Made by a program: the position numbers and the translations under genes. Of a stretch of DNA of 64,000 bases, positions 3,464-12,751 are shown in pieces. The stretch comes from Ideonella sp. Lineage in GTDB: Bacteria > Pseudomonadota > Gammaproteobacteria > Burkholderiales > Burkholderiaceae_C. The stretch spans positions 434,001 to 498,000 of the forward strand of contig JABTUC010000001.1 in assembly GCA_015075545.1 (NCBI GenBank), given 5' to 3'. The first letter of the stretch is position 1, and each line of letters begins with the position of its first letter. The notes beneath the pieces are model-generated. The model made no database searches. It worked only from the letters and a program-made list of their open reading frames with translations, and had not been told where the DNA came from.

Positions 3464-3500
3464 CGTGGCGATTATCGACGGCGCCCTATCATGCCCGCCG
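3464..3500. promoter_or_regulatory. Divergent hemE/creB interval with -10-like hexamers close to both start codons
   Basis: Only 37 bases separate the two start codons. On the minus strand GATAAT (3471-3476) lies 7 bases before the hemE ATG. On the plus strand TATCAT (3487-3492) lies 8 bases before the creB ATG. If these are real -10 elements, transcription would begin at or within a base or two of the start codons, giving leaderless or nearly leaderless mRNAs. No Shine-Dalgarno sequence stands in front of either gene, which agrees. Matching -35 elements would fall inside the opposite gene. This is inference from spacing only. Confidence 0.4.
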
Positions 3501-4202
3501 ATGTCCAAGCCGCTGATCCTGATCATCGAGGACGAACCCGGCATCGCCGACACGCTGCAGTACGCGCTGCGCACCGAGGGCTTCGAGCCCGCCTGGTGCG
3601 CCAGCGCCGAGGCCGCGCTGACGCTGGTGGCGCAGCGCCCGCCGGCGCTGGTGATCCTCGACGTCGGGCTGCCCGATCTGAGCGGCTTCGAGCTGTTCAA
3701 GCGCCTGCGCGAGCGCGTCGACGTGCCGGTGGTGTTTCTCACCGCGCGCAGCGACGAGATCGACCGCGTGGTCGGGCTCGAACTGGGCGCCGACGACTAC
3801 GTGACCAAGCCGTTCTCGCCGCGCGAGCTGGTGGCGCGCGTGCGCAGCGTGCTGCGGCGCGCGGCGCGGCCCGCGCCGCCGGTACCGACGGCGGCGCGGG
3901 CGTTCGAGATCGACGACGGCCGGCGACAGATCCGCTTCTACGGCCGGCCGCTCGAGTTGTCGCGCTACGAGTTCGGGCTGCTGCGCGCGCTGGCCAGCCG
4001 GCCCGGCCACGTATACACGCGCGACATGCTGCTCGCTCTGGTGTGGGACGACGACAGCGACAGTCTCGACCGCACGGTCGACGCGCACGTCAAGACGATA
4101 CGCGCGAAGCTGAAGGCCGTGGCGCCGACGCTGGAGCCGATCCGCACGCACCGCGGCGTCGGCTACGCGCTGGCCGAAGATCTGCCGACGCAACTGCCAT
4201 GA
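3501..4202 (+). CDS. creB: CreB-type response regulator (OmpR/PhoB family)
   Basis: DNA-binding response regulator partner of the sensor kinase encoded just downstream. The 233-residue protein has a receiver domain (about 1-120) with the acidic pair in IIEDEPG, the phospho-acceptor Asp in [13 protein letters not shown] and the conserved Lys in [11 protein letters not shown] PhoB-type winged helix follows (about 140-230), with [13 protein letters not shown] and the recognition region [17 protein letters not shown]. The start [13 protein letters not shown] sets the receiver at residue 1; an upstream in-frame extension would overlap hemE. CreB is assigned from sequence resemblance together with the CreC-like kinase. 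In E. coli and pseudomonads CreBC is linked to cell-wall and penicillin-binding-protein stress, but that role is not shown here. Confidence 0.88.
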
Positions 4203-4307: not shown

Positions 4308-5750
4308 GTGACCGCGCGCACCCGCGTCTTCGTCGGCATCCTGCTGGTCTACGCGCTGGGCGTCGGCGTGCTGATGTGGCGACTGCTGGCCGACATCGAC
4401 CCGCGCTACCGCGAATCGGCCGAGGAGTCGCTGGTCGAGACGGCGTACCTGATGGCGACCCAGATCGAGCAGCGAAGCGGCTCGGATTCGCCGCTGGACA
4501 CCGCGTGGCTCGAACCGCTGTTCCGCGATCTCTATGCGCGCCGTTTCGACGCCAACATCTTCGGCATCCGCAAGCAGAGCGTCGAGCTGCGCGCGATGGT
4601 CGTCGATGCGCACGGCATCGTGCTGTTCGACTCGCTCGGTCGCCACGAGGGCCAGGACTACTCCCAATGGCGCGACATCAGGCTGGCGCTGGCCGGGCGG
4701 TACGGGGCGCGCACCAGCATCGACTTCGATGGCGATCCCGACACCTCGGTGATGGTGGTGGCGGTGCCGGTCCGCATCGACGGCCGCATCGCCGGCGCGG
4801 TGGCGGTGGCCAAACCGGCGCAGAGCATCGGCCAGTTCGTCGCCGCGGCACGGCGCAAGACGCTCGCCGTCGGCCTCACCTCGGTGGTGGCGGTGCTGCT
4901 GCTGGCGGTGATCGTCGCGGTCTGGTTGGTGCGGCCGTTTGGGCTGATCGGCGCCACGCTGCGCGACCTGCGGCACGAGCGCACGCTGAGCCTGCCGCGG
5001 CTCGGGCGGCGCGCACTCGGCACCTTCGGCGCCGCCTTCGACGAGATGCGCGACGCGCTGGCCGGACGCCACTACGTGGCCGACTACGTGCAGACGCTGA
5101 CCCACGAGCTGAAGAGCCCGCTGTCGGCGATCCGCGGCGCGGCCGAACTGCTGCGCGAGCCGGGCATGCCCGAGGCCGACCGCCGGCGCTTCCTCGCCAA
5201 CGTCGAGCGCGAGACGCAGCGCATCCAGGAACTGGTCGATCGCATGATGGAGCTCACCGCGCTCGAGCGCCGCCGCGCGCTCGGCCCGACCGAAGCGGTG
5301 GCCCTGAGGCCGCTGCTGCAGGAGCTGGCCGGCAGCGCCGAGGCGGCCGGCGCGCCGCGCCACCTGCGCGTGCTGCTGCACGACGGCGCCGACGTCGGCG
5401 TCGACGGCGACCCGCTGCTGCTGCGACGTGCGGTGGCCAACCTGCTGGACAACGCGCTCGACTTCTCGCCCGACGGTGGCGTAGTCGAGGTCGCGCTCGC
5501 GCGCCGCGGCCGCCGCGTGGTGGTGACGATCCGCGACCACGGCCCCGGCATCCCGGAGTTCGCCGACGCCAAGGTGTTCGAGAAGTTCTTCTCGCTCGCA
5601 CGGCCGCACAGCCGGCGCAAGAGCACCGGCCTCGGCCTGGCGTTCGTCAAGCAGATCGCGCAACTGCACCGCGGCCGGGTCGTGCTGCGCAACGCCGACG
5701 GCGGCGGCGCGCTGGCCACGCTGACCCTGCCCTGCGCCGACGCGGTCTGA
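4308..5750 (+). CDS. creC: CreC-type sensor histidine kinase
   Basis: Membrane histidine kinase expected to phosphorylate the preceding response regulator. The 480-residue product begins at GTG with a transmembrane helix (about 6-25). A periplasmic sensor segment (about 26-175) and a second helix with HAMP-like linker follow (about 185-240). The dimerisation domain carries the phospho-accepting His in LTHELKSPLSAIRGAAELL, and the ATPase domain shows NLLDNALDFSPDG, DHGPGIPE and STGLGLAFVKQIAQLH. This matches the CreC layout, including the N-terminal RVFVGILLVYALGVG. The 105 bases after creB contain no gene. creA and creD, which accompany creBC in Enterobacteria, are absent; a VIT/vWA gene stands in the creD position. 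Confidence 0.87.
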   Translation: MTARTRVFVGILLVYALGVGVLMWRLLADIDPRYRESAEESLVETAYLMATQIEQRSGSDSPLDTAWLEPLFRDLYARRFDANIFGIRKQSVELRAMVVDAHGIVLFDSLGRHEGQDYSQWRDIRLALAGRYGARTSIDFDGDPDTSVMVVAVPVRIDGRIAGAVAVAKPAQSIGQFVAAARRKTLAVGLTSVVAVLLLAVIVAVWLVRPFGLIGATLRDLRHERTLSLPRLGRRALGTFGAAFDEMRDALAGRHYVADYVQTLTHELKSPLSAIRGAAELLREPGMPEADRRRFLANVERETQRIQELVDRMMELTALERRRALGPTEAVALRPLLQELAGSAEAAGAPRHLRVLLHDGADVGVDGDPLLLRRAVANLLDNALDFSPDGGVVEVALARRGRRVVVTIRDHGPGIPEFADAKVFEKFFSLARPHSRRKSTGLGLAFVKQIAQLHRGRVVLRNADGGGALATLTLPCADAV

Positions 5751-5863
5751 CGGCCGCGCTGCGGCCCGCGGCTTCACGCCGACTTCACACAGCGCACGCG
5801 CGCTTCGCACGCGGTTCGCGCGGGAGCGCGACAGTGCCAGCGAGCCCACCGCAGGAGCCGCCC

Positions 5864-7936
5864 GTGCCCCACCAAGCCCACCCGTCGCGCGCGCCGCTGG
5901 CGATCGGCCGCGTACTCGCCTGCGTCGTCGTTGCGCTGCTGGCCGCGCTCGCGCTGGTGATCTGGTCGCCGGCACACGCCGAGGACACCGATGCGCGCGC
6001 CCCCGAGGCGCCGTACTTCCACGTCGCCAGCGACGACCCCGCGCTCGACGCGCTGCCGCTGAAGGCGACGCAGGTCGACGTGCGCATCGCCGGCGTGATC
6101 GCCGCGGTGACGGTGACGCAGCACTACCGCAACGCGGGGCAGCGCCCGATCGAGGCGCGCTACATCTTCCCCGGCTCGACGCGATCGGCCCTGCACGCGA
6201 TGACGGTGCGCATCGGCGAGCGGCGCATCGTCGCGCAGATTCGCGAGAAGCAGCGCGCCCGGCTCGAGTACGACGATGCCCGCCGCGAGGGCAAGACCAG
6301 CGCGCTGCTCGAGCAGGAGCGGCCCAACGTGTTCTCGATGAAGGTGGCCAACATCCTGCCCGGCGACGACGTGCAGGTCGAGCTGCAGTACACCGAGCTG
6401 ATCGCGCCGCACGACGGCCGCTACCGCTTCGTGTTTCCGACCGTGGTCGGCCCACGCTACCGATCTGCGGCCGCATCGCCGGCCAACGGCGCGCTCACGG
6501 CCACCGCGCACCTGCCTCCCGGCGTCGCCTCCGACACAACGTTCGACCTGAACGTGAAGCTCGACGCGCCGCTGCCGATCCGCGAGCTGAGCAGCCAGAG
6601 CCACAAGCTCGAAGCGCTCGGCCTGGGCACCGCTCACGTGCAGCTCGCGCTGGCCGACGACGGCCCGCGCGACAACCGCGACTTCATCGTCGAGTACGCC
6701 CTGGCCGGCGAGCGTACCGCCACGGGCGTGATGCTCTACCAGGCCCCGCCGGGCGACGACGCGGAGAACTTCTTCCTCGTCATGGTCGAGCCGCCGCAGA
6801 CGGTGACGCCGACGCAGATCAACCCGCGCGAGTACGTCTTCGTGGTCGACATCTCGGGTTCGATGCACGGCTACCCGCTCGACACCGCGAAGGCGCTGCT
6901 GCGCGAGCTGATCGGCAGCCTGCGGCCGACCGACGCCTTCAACGTCGTGCTGTTCTCCGGCAGCAACCGCGTGCTGGCCGAGCAGTCGATGCCGGCGACG
7001 CCCGCCCACATCGCGCGCGCGCTGCGCATCATCGATCGCGCCGGCGGCAGCGGCAGCACCGAGATCGTGCCGGCGCTGCGCCGCGTCGCCGCGCTGCCCA
7101 AGGCGGCCGACGTGTCGCGCACGGTGGTCGTGGTGACCGACGGCTACGTCGCGGTCGAGAACGAGGTGTTCGCGCTGGTGCGGCGCAATCTGGACCAGTT
7201 CAACCTGTTCGCCTTCGGCATCGGCACCGCGGTGAACCGCCACCTCGTCGAAGGCCTTGCCCGCGCCGGCCAGGGCGAGGCCTTCATCGTCACCCGGCCC
7301 GAGCGAGCGGCCGAACAGGCGCAGCGGCTGCGCCGCATGATCGACACCCCGGTGCTGACGCAACTGAAAGCGCGCTTCACCGGCATCGAGGCCTACGACG
7401 TCGAGCCCGCGACGCTGCCCGACGTGATGGCGGGGCGCCCCGTCGTGCTGTGGGGCAAGTGGCGCGGCGACCCGCACGACGCCAAACTGGTGCTGACGGG
7501 GCAGGCCGCCGACGGCAGCTTCGTCGACGTCATCGACGCGCCGCCGCCCGACGCCGACGCGGTGGCGCTGCGCCACCTGTGGGCGCGCCAGCGCATCGCG
7601 CAGCTCGGCGACGACGAAGCGCTGCTGGGCGGGCAGTCGCAGCGCGAGCCGATCACCGCGCTCGGGTTGAAGTACGGCCTGCTCACCAACTACACCAGCT
7701 TCGTCGCGGTCGACCAGGTGGTGCGCACGCAGCAGGCGGCCACGCCGGTGAACCAGCCGCTGCCGCTGCCGCAAGGGGTGAGCGCGCTGGCGGTCGGTGC
7801 CGAGCCGGTGCTTGCCACCGCGGTGCCGAGCACGCCCGAGCCGCGCTGGGCGCTGGCGCTCGCGCTGACGCTGCTGTTGACCGCAGCGGCGCTGTGGCAC
7901 GCCCGGCTGCTGCGCCGCAACGCCAGCGCGCGATGA
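5864..7936 (+). CDS. Secreted VIT + von Willebrand factor A protein with PEP-CTERM-like sorting tail
   Basis: Probable single substrate of the exosortase encoded next. The start is GTG at 5864, with AGGAG at 5853-5857 at good spacing; longer readings of the frame run through creC and are not credible. The 690-residue product has a signal peptide ending near HAED (about residue 36) and a vault/inter-alpha-trypsin (VIT) domain (about 45-180). Its vWA domain (about 300-480) has an intact metal site, VVDISGSMHG. The C-terminus has the three-part exosortase signal: STPEP (PEP at 658-660), a hydrophobic helix (ALALALTLLL) and an arginine cluster (RLLRRN). Its stop overlaps the exosortase start (ATGA). 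VIT/vWA proteins are targets of some known sortase and exosortase systems; the ligand is unknown. Confidence 0.85.
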   Translation: MPHQAHPSRAPLAIGRVLACVVVALLAALALVIWSPAHAEDTDARAPEAPYFHVASDDPALDALPLKATQVDVRIAGVIAAVTVTQHYRNAGQRPIEARYIFPGSTRSALHAMTVRIGERRIVAQIREKQRARLEYDDARREGKTSALLEQERPNVFSMKVANILPGDDVQVELQYTELIAPHDGRYRFVFPTVVGPRYRSAAASPANGALTATAHLPPGVASDTTFDLNVKLDAPLPIRELSSQSHKLEALGLGTAHVQLALADDGPRDNRDFIVEYALAGERTATGVMLYQAPPGDDAENFFLVMVEPPQTVTPTQINPREYVFVVDISGSMHGYPLDTAKALLRELIGSLRPTDAFNVVLFSGSNRVLAEQSMPATPAHIARALRIIDRAGGSGSTEIVPALRRVAALPKAADVSRTVVVVTDGYVAVENEVFALVRRNLDQFNLFAFGIGTAVNRHLVEGLARAGQGEAFIVTRPERAAEQAQRLRRMIDTPVLTQLKARFTGIEAYDVEPATLPDVMAGRPVVLWGKWRGDPHDAKLVLTGQAADGSFVDVIDAPPPDADAVALRHLWARQRIAQLGDDEALLGGQSQREPITALGLKYGLLTNYTSFVAVDQVVRTQQAATPVNQPLPLPQGVSALAVGAEPVLATAVPSTPEPRWALALALTLLLTAAALWHARLLRRNASAR

Positions 7937-8757
7937 GCCTGGCGCTGCGCGTCGAATGCCGGCCGGTGCGGCTGCGCGCATTGCACTGGCTGGCATTGCA
8001 CGCGCTGGCCCTGTGGCCGCATGGCGTCTACGTGGCGCAGCGTGCGCTCGACGGCTCCGACGACCCGCTGGGTGTGGTGGCGCTGCTGGCCGCCGCGGCG
8101 CTGCTGGCTTCGCAGCACGCACGGCTGCGCCTGACGCCGCAGCTCGGCTGGCTCGCCGCCGCCGTGGCGCTGGCGCTGGCGGCCAACGGCGCCTGGTGCG
8201 TCGGCGCAGCGGCGCTGGCCGGCGCATTGCTCGCCGCACTGTCGCTCGGCTGCGCGCTGCTCGCGTGGTGGCCGCGCGATCGCGCAAAAGCGCCGCTGCT
8301 CGGCCTGGTTGTGCTCGCATTGCCCTGGCAGGCGACGCTGCAGTTCTACCTCGGCTGGCCGCTGCGCGTGCTGACCGCGCAGATGAGCGCCTGGGGTCTG
8401 CAGGGCCTGGGCTTCGCCGCGCAGCGCAGCGGCGCATCGATGATCGTCGACGGCCGACTGGTGCTCGTCGACGCGCCGTGCTCCGGCGTGCAGATGGCGT
8501 GGCTCGCGTACCTCACCGCGTGCGCCTGCGCCGCCGCCACCGGCACCGCTGATCGCGCGTTCGTGCGGCGCCTGCCGCTGGTGGGCCTCGCGGTCTTGGC
8601 CGGCAACGTGCTGCGCAACAGCGTGCTGGTGGCGCTCGAGGCGCGACCATCGGGGCTTGCGCCGGCGTGGCACGAGGCGATCGGCCTCGCGGTGCTGGGG
8701 GCGGTGTGCGCCGTCGTGTGGCTGCTGATGCGGCGCGGGGGCACGCGCGATGCGTGA
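7933..8757 (+). CDS. Exosortase (Xrt family) dedicated to the preceding VIT/vWA protein
   Basis: Exosortases are inner-membrane transpeptidases that cut PEP-CTERM-type tails and pass the protein to the cell surface. The 274-residue protein is almost entirely hydrophobic, with about eight membrane segments. It has the three residues that define the family, in order and spacing: Cys183 in VDAPCSGVQMAWLAYL, Arg228 in GNVLRNSVLVALEA and His247 in APAWHEAIGLAVLG. It starts inside the stop of the VIT/vWA gene (ATGA overlap, 7933-7936) and overlaps the next gene by 8 bases, so the three are almost certainly translated together. It is short compared with XrtA, which is often fused to or paired with EpsI. 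I cannot assign the subfamily letter from sequence alone. Confidence 0.88.
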   Translation: MSLALRVECRPVRLRALHWLALHALALWPHGVYVAQRALDGSDDPLGVVALLAAAALLASQHARLRLTPQLGWLAAAVALALAANGAWCVGAAALAGALLAALSLGCALLAWWPRDRAKAPLLGLVVLALPWQATLQFYLGWPLRVLTAQMSAWGLQGLGFAAQRSGASMIVDGRLVLVDAPCSGVQMAWLAYLTACACAAATGTADRAFVRRLPLVGLAVLAGNVLRNSVLVALEARPSGLAPAWHEAIGLAVLGAVCAVVWLLMRRGGTRDA

Positions 8758-9304
8758 ACGCCGGCTCGCCGCCGTGCGGCGCTGGCTCGACGAGCAATGG
8801 CCGCGTGGGTTGCTGGCGGCGCTCGCGGCGTGCGCGCTGTGGCCGTTGGTCGGGCGCGGCGAAGCCGAGGTTGCTGCAGCCACGACGCCGCACGAGTGGC
8901 CGCGCGTGTGGCAAGGCGACAGCTTGCGCCCGCTGGCGCTGACCGCGGTCGAGCAGCGCTTCGCGCGCCGATTCCCGGGCCAGATCGGCCGCTTCGCCGC
9001 CGACGACGGCAGCGTCTGGGTGCTGCGCGACGTGTCGCGCCCAACCCGCACGCTGCATCCGGCGAGCGATTGTTTCCGCGGCCTGGGCTGGCGCATCGAG
9101 CAGGCACGGCCGCAACGTGACGCCGAGGCTCGGCTTTGGCGCTGCTTCGTCGCCGAGCGCGCGGGCGAACGCGTGCGCGTCTGCGAGCGCATCGTCGACG
9201 CCGGTGAGCACGGCTTCATCGATGCGTCGTCGTGGTACTGGGCCGCGCTGCTCGGCCACACGAGCGGACCCTGGCGCGCAACGACGCGCGTGGAAGCATT
9301 GTGA
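8750..9304 (+). CDS. Small membrane-anchored protein with EpsI-like motif (exosortase accessory candidate)
   Basis: I do not recognise this 184-residue protein with certainty. It has one N-terminal membrane helix (about 18-35) and an extracytoplasmic domain. The segment TLHPASDCFRGLGW (residues 101-114) has the spacing LHPxxxCxxGxGW and resembles the LHxxxxCLPGxGW signature of EpsI (DUF3485), the usual companion of exosortases. FIDASSWYWAALLGH near the end is similar to the final strand/helix of that family. It overlaps the exosortase by 8 bases and the following glycosyltransferase by 4 (GTGA), which fixes it in the same translational unit. EpsI's biochemical role is itself poorly known, so the proposed role is accessory protein, by analogy only. 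Confidence 0.6.
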   Translation: MRERRLAAVRRWLDEQWPRGLLAALAACALWPLVGRGEAEVAAATTPHEWPRVWQGDSLRPLALTAVEQRFARRFPGQIGRFAADDGSVWVLRDVSRPTRTLHPASDCFRGLGWRIEQARPQRDAEARLWRCFVAERAGERVRVCERIVDAGEHGFIDASSWYWAALLGHTSGPWRATTRVEAL

Positions 9305-10569
9305 TCGACCCGCGGCCGCGCCTGCTGCTCGAGCGCCTGCTGCGCGGGCTGGCGTGGGTCATGCTCGCCGCCCTCGCCTGCGCGGTCGCGCTGGCGCTGC
9401 TGGCGCTGCAGGCCTTGCAGCCAGAGGCCGACGAGTGGCAGATCCGCTTGCGCATCGGGCCGTGGCAACGCGAGGCCAGCGTGCCCGCGTTGATCCGCTG
9501 GGCCACGCACCCGCTGGCGGCGCCGCTGCTCGAGGGCGGCACGCTGCACACGCGCTGGGGCGATTGGCGGGTGCAGCGCGCCGGCGCGCGATTCGAGGCG
9601 CTGTGCGCGCCGTGCCGCATGCAGATCGCTGCCCTCGGGCCCGCGCCACTGCAGGTGTCGAACGCACACCTGCTGGCGCGGCATTCCGACGCCAACCGCT
9701 TCGCGGGCACGCTGACTCTCACCCAGGCCGACCGCCGCATCGAGATCGCATTCGACGCGCAACTACAGCGGCGCGGCGCCGAGCTGCGGCTGTCGATGCC
9801 GGCCACGCCGATGGTCGCGTTGCTCTCGGTGTTCGGGCATGACCTGCCCGAGGCTTCGACCGTGCAGGTCACCGGCTCGCTGACCCTGGTGGCCGAAGCG
9901 CGCTGGCCCGAGGGCACCTGGCAGGCCAGGCCGCTGATCCACGACTTCACGGTCTCGGGCCTCGGCACCGAACGGCTGATGGCCGCGCAGCTACCGCCGG
10001 CGTGCCGCGCCGGCGCCGGCGACGCGGCACCGATCACCGGCTGGCTGCCGCGCGCCTTGGTGGCCGCCGAGGATGCGCACTTCTGGGAGCACCCGGGCTA
10101 CGAGGTCGACTCGCTGCTCGCCGCCGCCGCACACAACCAGCACGCCGATGCGAGTCTGCGCGGCGCCAGCACCCTGACGCAGCAGTTGGCCAAACTCACG
10201 GTCACCGGCGACGACCGCAGCGTCGCGCGCAAGCTGCGCGAGCTGCTGTACGCGGTGGAGATGGAGCGCACGCTCGGCAAGGCACGCATCCTGCAGCTCT
10301 ATCTGGCGCTGGCGCCGTGGGGCGACGGCGTGTGCGGCGCCGAGCGCGCGGCGCAGGTCTACCTCGGCAAGAGCGCCTCGAAGGTCGGCCCGGTGTCGGC
10401 CGCCTGGCTGGTGAGCCTGCTGCGCAACCCCGACGCGCAATTGCGGCACTACGACGAAGCCAACGAGATCGATCGCGAACGCGTGCGGCAGATCCTCGCC
10501 GGCATGCGGCCGATGACCGCCGCGCAACGCGCGCTGGCCAACGAGCAGGTGCAGGAGTGGCTGCCGTGA
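9301..10569 (+). CDS. Membrane-anchored GT51 peptidoglycan glycosyltransferase without transpeptidase domain
   Basis: GT51 enzymes polymerise glycan strands from lipid II. This 422-residue protein starts at GTG 9301, inside the stop of the preceding gene. It has an N-terminal membrane helix (about 18-38), a roughly 200-residue extracytoplasmic region I cannot assign (with a CxxC at 102-105), and a GT51 domain at about 245-400. Both catalytic glutamates are present: Glu257 in AAEDAHFWEHPG and Glu314 in RKLRELLYAVEMER; GASTLTQQLAK and AERAAQVYLGKSASK are also conserved. No penicillin-binding domain follows, so it resembles monofunctional MtgA, but with an extra N-terminal domain. Its coupling to an exosortase unit is unusual and suggests local wall remodelling during protein sorting; that part is inference. 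Confidence 0.8.
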   Translation: MIDPRPRLLLERLLRGLAWVMLAALACAVALALLALQALQPEADEWQIRLRIGPWQREASVPALIRWATHPLAAPLLEGGTLHTRWGDWRVQRAGARFEALCAPCRMQIAALGPAPLQVSNAHLLARHSDANRFAGTLTLTQADRRIEIAFDAQLQRRGAELRLSMPATPMVALLSVFGHDLPEASTVQVTGSLTLVAEARWPEGTWQARPLIHDFTVSGLGTERLMAAQLPPACRAGAGDAAPITGWLPRALVAAEDAHFWEHPGYEVDSLLAAAAHNQHADASLRGASTLTQQLAKLTVTGDDRSVARKLRELLYAVEMERTLGKARILQLYLALAPWGDGVCGAERAAQVYLGKSASKVGPVSAAWLVSLLRNPDAQLRHYDEANEIDRERVRQILAGMRPMTAAQRALANEQVQEWLP

Positions 10570-10662
10570 GATCCACCCTTGAACGGCCGCGGCGCGTCCC
10601 CAATTGCCCCGCCGACGCTGTGCGGTAGCATCCACGGCGCGTTGCACGTGGGGAGAATGATG

Positions 10663-11280
10663 ATGCTTCGGCAATCGCGTATATGGGCCTGGCTGATCGC
10701 CGTGGCCGGCGTGCTCGGCCTGTCGGGCTGCGGCTACAACGACTTCCAGCGTCTCGATGAGCAGGTGAAGGCGTCGTGGTCCGAGGTGCTCAACCAGTAC
10801 CAGCGCCGCGCCGACCTGATCCCGAACATCGTCAACACGGTGAAGGGCGAGGCCGGGTTCGAGCAGGAGACGCTGACCAAGGTGATCGAGGCGCGCGCCA
10901 AGGCCACCAGCATCCAGGTGACGCCCGAGACGCTCAACGACCCGGCGGCGTTCAACAGGTTCCAGCAGGCGCAGGGCGAGCTGACCTCGGCGCTGTCGCG
11001 GCTGATCGCGGTGAGCGAGAACTACCCCAACCTCAAGACCAACCAGGGCTTCCAGGACTTGCGCGTGCAGCTCGAAGGCACCGAGAACCGCATCACCGTG
11101 GCGCGCAACCGCTACATCAAGGCGGTGGCCGAGTACAACGTGCTGGTGCGCCAGTTCCCGAGCAACCTGACGGCGATGCTGTTCAGCTACTCGGTCAAGC
11201 CGTCGTTCACGGTCGACAACGAGGCGCAGATCTCCAAGCCGCCGACGGTCGACTTCAGCAAGCCCGCGGCGTCGAAGTGA
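10663..11280 (+). CDS. lemA: LemA family lipoprotein
   Basis: LemA proteins are small membrane-associated coiled proteins of unclear function. This 205-residue product has a signal with lipobox LSGC (Cys23), then the family core: YNDFQRLDEQVKASWSEV, QYQRRADLIPNIVNTVKG, SENYPNLKTNQGFQDL and ENRITVARNRYIKAVAEYN, mostly alpha-helical. Three ATGs occur in a row (10657, 10660, 10663). The third is preferred because the purine-rich GGGGAGA at 10650-10656 would be too close to the first. It is followed by two TPM-domain genes, the usual LemA neighbourhood in many bacteria. It sits 93 bases after the GT51 gene and may have its own promoter, so membership of the exosortase unit is uncertain. Confidence 0.93.
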   Translation: MLRQSRIWAWLIAVAGVLGLSGCGYNDFQRLDEQVKASWSEVLNQYQRRADLIPNIVNTVKGEAGFEQETLTKVIEARAKATSIQVTPETLNDPAAFNRFQQAQGELTSALSRLIAVSENYPNLKTNQGFQDLRVQLEGTENRITVARNRYIKAVAEYNVLVRQFPSNLTAMLFSYSVKPSFTVDNEAQISKPPTVDFSKPAASK

Positions 11281-11323
11281 GGCCGCAGCGTCGGCCACGG
11301 CGCGGCTGACGGGCAGCCCGGTG

Positions 11324-12226
11324 ATGAGCAGCACCTCCACGCGGTGGCTGCACCGCTGGCTGCGGGCTTGGCTGCTGGCGCTGTGCGGTCTGGCCGCGGG
11401 CGCACTCGCGCAGGAGCTGGCGGCGGTGCCGCCGCTGACGGGGCGCGTGATCGACCAGACCGACACGCTGAGCGCCGCACAGCGCCAGGCGATGGAGCAG
11501 CACCTGGCCAACGTCGAGCGCGAGATCGGCTCGCAGATCGTGGTGCTGATCGTGCCGACCACGCAGCCCGAAGACATCGCCGCCTACACGCAGCGCGTCG
11601 GCGACGCCTGGAAGATCGGCCGCCGCGACGTCGGCGACGGCCTGCTGATCGTGGTGGCCAAGAACGACCGCAAGGTACGCATCGAGGTCGCCAAGACGCT
11701 CGAAGGCGCGGTGCCCGATCTGGCGGCGCACCAGATCATCACCGAGACCATCACGCCGGCGTTCCGCCGCAACGATTTCGCAGGCGGGCTCAACGCCGCG
11801 ATCGACCGCATCGCCGCGCGCATCAAGCCCGAGGGGCTGCCGGTACCGAATGCGCGCCCGCGTCGCGGCAACGACGAAGGCCTGTTCGACATCGGCAACC
11901 TGGCGATCTTCTTCTTCGTCGGCGTGCCGATCGTCGGTGCGGTGCTGTCGGGCATGTTCGGGCGCAAGCTCGGCGCGCTGCTCACCGGCGGCGGTGCCGG
12001 CGCGCTGGCCTGGCTGCTGGGCGCCGGCCTGCTGCTGGCCGGCGTGGCGGCGATGGTGGCGGTGCTGATGGTCGGCGTGTTCGGAGTCGGCGGCCGTGGC
12101 CGCGGCGGTGGCCCGCCGATCATCTGGGGCGGTGGCGGCGGTGGCGGCTTCGGCGGTGGAGGCGGCGGCTTCTCCTCGGGCGGCGGCGGCGACTTCGGTG
12201 GCGGCGGCGCCTCGGGTAGCTGGTAG
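11324..12226 (+). CDS. TPM-domain (YgcG-type) membrane protein with glycine-rich tail
   Basis: The TPM (formerly DUF477) domain has phosphatase-like or metal-linked roles in several systems, but its activity here is unknown. The 300-residue product has a signal peptide (cut near LAQE, about residue 31). The TPM domain (about 40-175) contains VIDQTDTLSAAQRQAMEQHL, VVLIVPTTQPEDIAAYTQRV and the characteristic VGDGLLIVVAKNDRKVRIEV. Two membrane helices follow (about 190-250), then a tail of glycine runs ending SGGGGDFGGGGASGSW. GTG at 11321 directly precedes the chosen ATG and is an alternative start. It follows lemA and precedes another TPM gene by 3 bases, a conserved LemA-TPM-TPM arrangement. 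Confidence 0.88.
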   Translation: MSSTSTRWLHRWLRAWLLALCGLAAGALAQELAAVPPLTGRVIDQTDTLSAAQRQAMEQHLANVEREIGSQIVVLIVPTTQPEDIAAYTQRVGDAWKIGRRDVGDGLLIVVAKNDRKVRIEVAKTLEGAVPDLAAHQIITETITPAFRRNDFAGGLNAAIDRIAARIKPEGLPVPNARPRRGNDEGLFDIGNLAIFFFVGVPIVGAVLSGMFGRKLGALLTGGGAGALAWLLGAGLLLAGVAAMVAVLMVGVFGVGGRGRGGGPPIIWGGGGGGGFGGGGGGFSSGGGGDFGGGGASGSW

Positions 12227-12229
12227 CGG

Positions 12230-12751
12230 ATGACGACGATGACCAAGAACCGGCTGCTGCGTCTGCTCGAACACCGCTGGTTCGACGAGCGCGACACGCG
12301 CCGTGCGCTCGGCCCCGAGGTGGTGCGGCGCCTGCAGCAGCGGGTGGCGGCCAGCGAGCGCGCGCACGCGGGCGAGATCCGGGTCTGTGTCGAAGCCGGC
12401 CTGCCGCTGTCGTACCTGTGGCGCGGCGCCAGCGCCCGCGAGCGCGCGCTGACGCTGTTCGGCAAGCTGCGGGTGTGGGACACCGCGCACAACAGCGGCG
12501 TGCTGATCTACCTGCTGCTGGCCGAGCATGCGATCGAGATCGTCGCCGACCGCGGGCTCAACGCCCACGTGAGCCCCGCCCAGTGGGCGGCGATCGTGGC
12601 GTCGATGCGCGACGCGTTTCGCGCCGGGCGCCACGAGCAGGGGCTCAACGCGGCGATCGACGCGGTCGACGCGCTGCTGCGGCAGCACTTCCCGCTCGCG
12701 CCAGGCGAGGCCAACCCCAACGAACTGCCCGACGAACCGGCGCTCGGCTGA
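12230..12751 (+). CDS. TPM-domain protein, cytoplasmic-type second copy
   Basis: A second TPM-domain protein of 173 residues, starting 3 bases after the previous gene. It lacks a signal peptide. The domain runs from about residue 35 to 155, with ERAHAGEIRVCVEAGLPLSY, VWDTAHNSGVLIYLLLAEHA and IEIVADRGLNAHVSPAQWAA. The ATG at 12230 is followed by a second in-frame ATG at 12239, either of which could be used. It is the last gene of the plus-strand cluster and faces atpC across an 84-base convergent gap that shows no classical terminator. In related bacteria this protein usually accompanies LemA and a YgcG-type protein; its substrate is unknown. Confidence 0.85.
   Translation: MTTMTKNRLLRLLEHRWFDERDTRRALGPEVVRRLQQRVAASERAHAGEIRVCVEAGLPLSYLWRGASARERALTLFGKLRVWDTAHNSGVLIYLLLAEHAIEIVADRGLNAHVSPAQWAAIVASMRDAFRAGRHEQGLNAAIDAVDALLRQHFPLAPGEANPNELPDEPALG

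Follow-up and report, generated by a model that had tools for sequence, protein, structure and literature searches.

Exosortases paired with a VIT-domain protein are already known. The XrtN system is, by its family name (TIGR04477), an exosortase with a VIT-domain target, and all three above-cut-off matches to XrtT among 369 genomes of the class adjoin a VIT match. A dedicated sortase system of proteobacteria (TIGR03785, TIGR03787, and TIGR03788) likewise has one VIT/vWA target, its own transpeptidase, and two-component genes. The present study concerns a related operon in a 64,000-nucleotide stretch of DNA from Ideonella sp. (the window; GCA_015075545.1, contig JABTUC010000001.1, positions 434,001-498,000, forward strand). 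In this operon, genes for a VIT/vWA protein, exosortase Q (XrtQ), a small EpsI-like protein, and a GT51 glycosyltransferase follow creB, creC, and a copy of the CreB-binding tag.

The window exosortase is a member of the exosortase Q family (NF012182) above its cut-off; judged by profile alone, that model covers neither the fourth gene, GT51, nor the CreB tag. Unlike the window module, the three XrtT regions that were fetched contain neither GT51 nor a CreB tag. The proteobacterial sortase system has a sortase where the window module has an exosortase, and the window VIT protein scores 408 with TIGR03788, the sortase target, below the equivalog cut-off of 551.65. As far as we searched the open-access literature, both GT51 as the fourth gene and the presence of a CreB tag are new. 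The best explanation for this locus, in our view and with about even confidence, is that CreBC controls an exosortase module that has a single evident target and a peptidoglycan polymerase of its own. It is based on the conserved gene order, catalytic residues, tail, and CreB tag; induction, processing, the acceptor, and the benefit are inferred.

A conserved four-gene operon

The features of the locus, in window coordinates, are as follows.

3501..4202, + strand: creB, response regulator (NF008296, 318.2 bits against a cut-off of 273; the scanned frame opened one codon earlier, at 3498)
4308..5750, + strand: creC, sensor histidine kinase (NF008312, 542.4 bits against a cut-off of 356)
5773..5788, + strand: CreB tag TTCACGCCGACTTCAC (TTCAC-N6-TTCAC), an exact pattern match 76 to 91 bases ahead of the VIT start codon
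5864..7936, + strand: VIT/vWA protein, presumed exosortase target (Pfam VIT, 116 bits, and VWA; STPEP-hydrophobic-Arg tail)
7933..8757, + strand: exosortase Q (NF012182, 303.6 bits against a cut-off of 270; Pfam Exosortase_EpsH, 80.9 bits; C183, R228, and H247)
8750..9304, + strand: EpsI-like small membrane-anchored protein (structure model; weak match to exosortase T, C-terminal part)
9301..10569, + strand: GT51 glycosyltransferase without a transpeptidase (Pfam Transgly, PF00912, 134 bits; residues; model and structure matches)

The four-gene unit spans 5864-10569, with successive overlaps of 4, 8, and 4 bases. The initial annotation of this DNA had given the same coordinates and overlaps, and its identification of the VIT/vWA protein, the exosortase, and the GT51 protein was borne out by Pfam and NCBIfam matches. 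The VIT/vWA and GT51 genes both start with GTG, the former preceded by AGGAG at 5853-5857. creB and creC directly precede the operon, and both proteins exceed the equivalog cut-offs of NCBIfam.

A scan of genome contigs with the window exosortase yielded 75 named XrtQ loci, mostly under burkholderial names, and all reading frames of these loci were searched with profiles grown from the window proteins. The VIT/vWA gene lies ahead of the exosortase in 73 of the 75 loci, the remaining two being cut by contig ends, and the EpsI-like part follows the exosortase in 74, the remaining locus ending there. GT51 comes next in 65 loci; of the 71 loci that extend 2 kb or more downstream, 63 have it. The initial annotation had described GT51 as a linked fourth gene to be checked by a neighbor search across genomes, and had stated that a chance neighbor found in one strain only would refute its reading. 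Since GT51 is conserved in 63 of these 71 roomy loci, with both of its presumed catalytic Glu residues kept in 62 of 63 aligned rows, it is not a chance neighbor. Among the 62 loci that reach 7 kb or more upstream, a CreC-profile match was found upstream in 47 and a CreB-profile match in 45. Across 59 loci, the four proteins show correlated pairwise distances (0.82 to 0.89), and shared descent alone would give the same result.

The association with GT51 was confined to this type of exosortase in our control. None of 48 other exosortase places has GT51 at a distance of up to about 1.5 kb; these were 50 short-flank places minus the locus of the window, which was the single GT51 case, and the XrtQ locus of genome G608. 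A profile of the N-terminal domain of the window GT51 protein (N-domain) matched in 5 of 300 genomes of the order, including that of the window. The four strong matches (G000, G171, G264, and G182) are all at XrtQ-type loci, the exosortase of G182 scoring 208, under the XrtQ cut-off, and the fifth (G219) is weak (E 8.3e-4). XrtQ above the cut-off is itself rare, being present in 4 of the 300 order genomes and 2 of the 369 class genomes, with the genome of the window counted in both.

On a quick tree of the exosortase and EpsI-like part (78 rows), the presence of GT51 changes 6 times, or 7 times when the one unknown row is given a state of its own. The GT51 gene is missing from a Pseudomonas-type group (L074, L089, L195, and L200), and the deep row L201 has one, on a long branch of unsure placement. 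In 18 of the 75 loci, mostly from Variovorax, a GT51-domain gene lies on the opposite strand upstream of VIT; among them are L033, L037, L040, L053, and L084, the five Variovorax-type loci without the operon GT51. The single opposite-strand gene that was scanned, L044:2757-5402 (- strand), encodes a class A penicillin-binding protein (PBP). The opposite-strand gene is not a clean replacement because 13 of the 18 loci keep the operon GT51 as well.

This pattern bears on another explanation, in which CreBC switches on two wall-stress answers, VIT/vWA processing and an extra polymerase, that share an operon and do not interact. The shared tag and operon would be expected from such co-regulation, and so would the loss of GT51 in several lineages that retained VIT and XrtQ. 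However, the N-domain type of GT51 occurs only at XrtQ-type loci among the 300 genomes, except for the one weak match, and a link to XrtQ accounts for this distribution better than a free-standing repair enzyme does. We consider co-regulation only to be somewhat unlikely.

The CreB tag

The CreBC link is the strongest functional clue to this operon and was overlooked by the initial annotation. The tag TTCACGCCGACTTCAC, between creC and the VIT gene, is the only exact copy in the window (expected 0.00, 100 shuffles) and in the 3.69-Mb assembly. Among the loci, we tested the 69 in which the VIT start lies at least 300 bases in. In 62 of them, an exact tag lies no more than 500 bases ahead of VIT; their other 1.03 Mb contains none, and a reversed-word control occurs 0 times upstream of VIT and once elsewhere. 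When half-site spacings of 0 to 15 were compared, only 6 stood out (62 loci), the others being found in 2 loci or fewer each; 16 loci have three in-phase half-sites. The exact tag is absent in L022, L045, L064, L074, L076, L088, and L089, of which L064 and L076 match at 9 of 10 positions. In five further XrtQ-type regions with VIT, the tag is upstream in L195, L201, L202, and L203, and was not found in L200.

The cre/blr tag is critical for the binding of CreB/BlrA, and in S. maltophilia it lies at about -80 to -65 of creD (available part of PMC4689548). The arrangement in the window is similar to those of CreBC-CreD and BlrAB, in which the tag also stands before the gene that follows creBC; the difference is that the exosortase operon occupies the place that creD has in other species. 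By its upstream TTCAC-N6-TTCAC, the operon is a predicted member of the Cre regulon, and the tag suggests that the two-component sensor switches it on. In P. aeruginosa, the loss of PBP4 activates CreBC and cefoxitin induces creD (excerpt of PMC2654508); on this basis, we infer that the operon is induced by wall stress.

In 20 XrtQ genomes, creD was found in 10; it was not found in the assembly of the window, which is 85% complete. In at least 6 of these 10 (G264, G666, G672, G673, G674, and G677), a tag precedes the creD match by no more than about 110 bases, and the exosortase operon there thus appears to be one Cre target among several.

The exosortase, its partner, and its evident target

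The active-site residues C183, R228, and H247, which the initial annotation had pointed out, are all present and identical in 75 of 75 aligned exosortase rows. XrtQ probably processes the VIT/vWA protein at its tail. This protein has a hydrophobic N-terminal start and, as read by eye, a C-terminal STPEP followed by a hydrophobic stretch and an Arg-rich end. D329, S331, and S333 of its DxSxS stretch are kept in 72 of 72 aligned rows. STPEP-like tails recur in most of the 73 related VIT proteins, the start codons of which were picked by script. The PEP-type tail proposed in the initial annotation therefore holds as a motif; however, it was matched by neither PF07589 nor TIGR02595 at E up to 10. 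Since these PEP-CTERM profiles miss the STPEP tail, additional XrtQ targets could be overlooked. Many of the VIT C-termini in L016-L090 extend beyond the Arg cluster to a recurring end such as RRFTA, RRLTS, or HHYTS. Ends of this kind are uncommon in sorting tails and are absent from the window protein.

The initial annotation had noted an EpsI-like motif in the small third protein. The Cys of this motif, LHPASDCFRGLGW, is kept in 75 of 75 aligned rows; however, membership in an EpsI family was not found, with no Pfam family at E up to 0.1 (including PF11984) and no match to the EpsI model TIGR02914. Among the NCBIfam models, only exosortase T was matched, in its C-terminal part (E 2.7e-7, under the cut-off). 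The name "EpsI-like" is accordingly tentative and refers to position and motif only. The structure model has a mean predicted local distance difference test (pLDDT) score of 93.6 and an N-terminal helix at 2-34. In L026, L045, L074, L087, L088, L089, and L090, the EpsI-like part and the exosortase share one open frame and are probably fused, which supports the joint action of both.

A second exosortase and many other PEP-CTERM proteins in the genome had been named in the initial annotation as findings against a module with a single target, and, taken literally, these are present. XrtA scores 308.5 bits against a cut-off of 208, and PEP-CTERM matches above the cut-off number 3 with PF07589 and 4 with TIGR02595; in 2 of 14 control genomes, TIGR02595 exceeds its cut-off as well. 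However, XrtA and the other PEP-CTERM proteins look like a separate system because XrtA comes with an EpsI domain of its own and is adjoined by an IPEP protein. Two of the PEP-CTERM tails inspected read VPEP and IPEP, and the XrtQ target reads STPEP. The XrtQ module has one evident target, the VIT/vWA protein, and with a single evident target for the exosortase the chemistry becomes tractable.

The sortase-type VIT regions share some of the features of this module. Among 20 fetched, 14 have a CreB-profile regulator match of more than 100 bits, and 3 (L209, L215, and L221) have a same-direction GT51-domain gene after VIT. In L209, a sortase follows VIT (by reading). The GT51-domain proteins of L209 and L221 are of the long class A PBP type.

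The GT51 protein and the proposed mechanism

PF00912 was the only Pfam domain found in the GT51 protein, with neither a transpeptidase nor a hydrolase domain. The protein consists of a helix (5-38), a beta-rich domain (approximately 47-219) with C102/C105, and the GT51 domain (approximately 232-416). Its model has a mean pLDDT of 93.5, an N-terminal membrane helix, and structure matches to the GT51 fold. The presumed catalytic residues kept in 62 of 63 rows are E257 and E314, the positions of which were matched to solved GT51 structures. The profile, fold, and catalytic Glu residues place the protein in the GT51 family, and lipid II polymerization is its predicted activity. The fold and motifs are common to MtgA and class A PBPs. 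The window protein differs from them by its beta-rich N-domain with CxxC, by C235 and C345 (conserved in 63 of 63 rows), and by the ILExYLN motif of GT51 enzymes, the Glu of which is Gln or Arg in 60 of 63 rows. It scores 127.3 with the MtgA model (TIGR02070), under the equivalog cut-off of 182.65, and was not assigned to MtgA.

GT51 enzymes polymerize glycan and do not open it. This is relevant to the proposal of the initial annotation that the GT51 protein opens or builds the wall locally, where the vWA protein, taken to be adhesive, is exported or anchored. The operon linkage and the N-terminal membrane helix in the model agree with this proposal. However, GT51 chemistry adds glycan, PF00912 without a hydrolase was found in the protein, and loci without GT51 retain VIT and XrtQ. 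The opening half contradicts GT51 chemistry and the building half overlaps with the explanation that we favor; as a whole, we consider the proposal to be highly improbable.

In the CreBC-controlled module that we favor, CreC would sense disturbed wall synthesis or the growth state, and CreB would bind the tag and turn the operon on. The VIT/vWA protein would be exported, with its C-terminal helix keeping it in the inner membrane. XrtQ, aided by the EpsI-like protein, may cleave it at the STPEP tail and hand it to an acceptor. The GT51 protein, in the same induced state, would polymerize lipid II without cross-linking. The VIT/vWA protein may thereby be placed at sites of fresh glycan and the stressed envelope reinforced. 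Such a module would offer CreBC an envelope effector, consistent with the link to penicillin-binding proteins reported for this two-component system, and the conserved tag names both the regulator and the likely inducing conditions.

To our knowledge, what exosortases attach their targets to is unsettled, and we know of no exosortase acceptor. The conserved GT51 in an exosortase operon names a candidate, lipid II or nascent glycan. A more specific explanation is that XrtQ joins the VIT/vWA protein covalently to this wall precursor or to the growing glycan and that GT51 builds the conjugate into the wall, analogous to the sortase-lipid II-transglycosylase route of Gram-positive bacteria. The GT51 gene in the same operon with its catalytic residues kept, the absence of GT51 near the 48 other exosortase places, and the existence of a sortase-type system with a related VIT/vWA target (TIGR03788) argue for this explanation. 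However, exosortases act from within the membrane, and there are loci without the operon GT51, although these too have lipid II and could rely on other GT51 enzymes. We consider this explanation to be unlikely. It would represent the covalent display of a protein on Gram-negative peptidoglycan, switched by CreBC under disturbed wall synthesis, and this consequence is equally doubtful.

Several observations weigh against the CreBC-controlled module with a dedicated polymerase. GT51 is missing despite sufficient room in L031, L033, L037, L040, L053, L074, L084, and L089, and the fourth gene is thus not obligatory; the XrtQ regions of G608 and G279 also have no GT51. The genome of the window contains two other GT51 genes, one PBP1A-like and one MtgA-like, and the role of the operon GT51 could, therefore, be redundant. 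The reversed tag pattern likewise occurs once in the assembly, so that the tag count in this genome is weak by itself. The 20 XrtQ genomes each contain between 1 and 48 copies of the tag, a total of 154 against 70 for the reversed control, and many genome-wide sites are thus background. Furthermore, in E. coli, CreBC is tied to the carbon source and O2, not to the wall (available part of PMC3962086).

Two regions (L198 and L199) have an XrtQ-like exosortase under the cut-off, an EpsI-like partner, and one CreB tag. In L198:8160-11956 (- strand), the tag is just ahead of an 823-amino acid VIT protein that has membrane helices at its N terminus, carries a PEP tail, and is weakly related to the target of the XrtN system. 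Downstream of the operon in the window, at 10579-12751, Pfam matches identified LemA, a TPM-domain protein with a Gly-rich end, and a second TPM protein. LemA matches are present in 12 loci.

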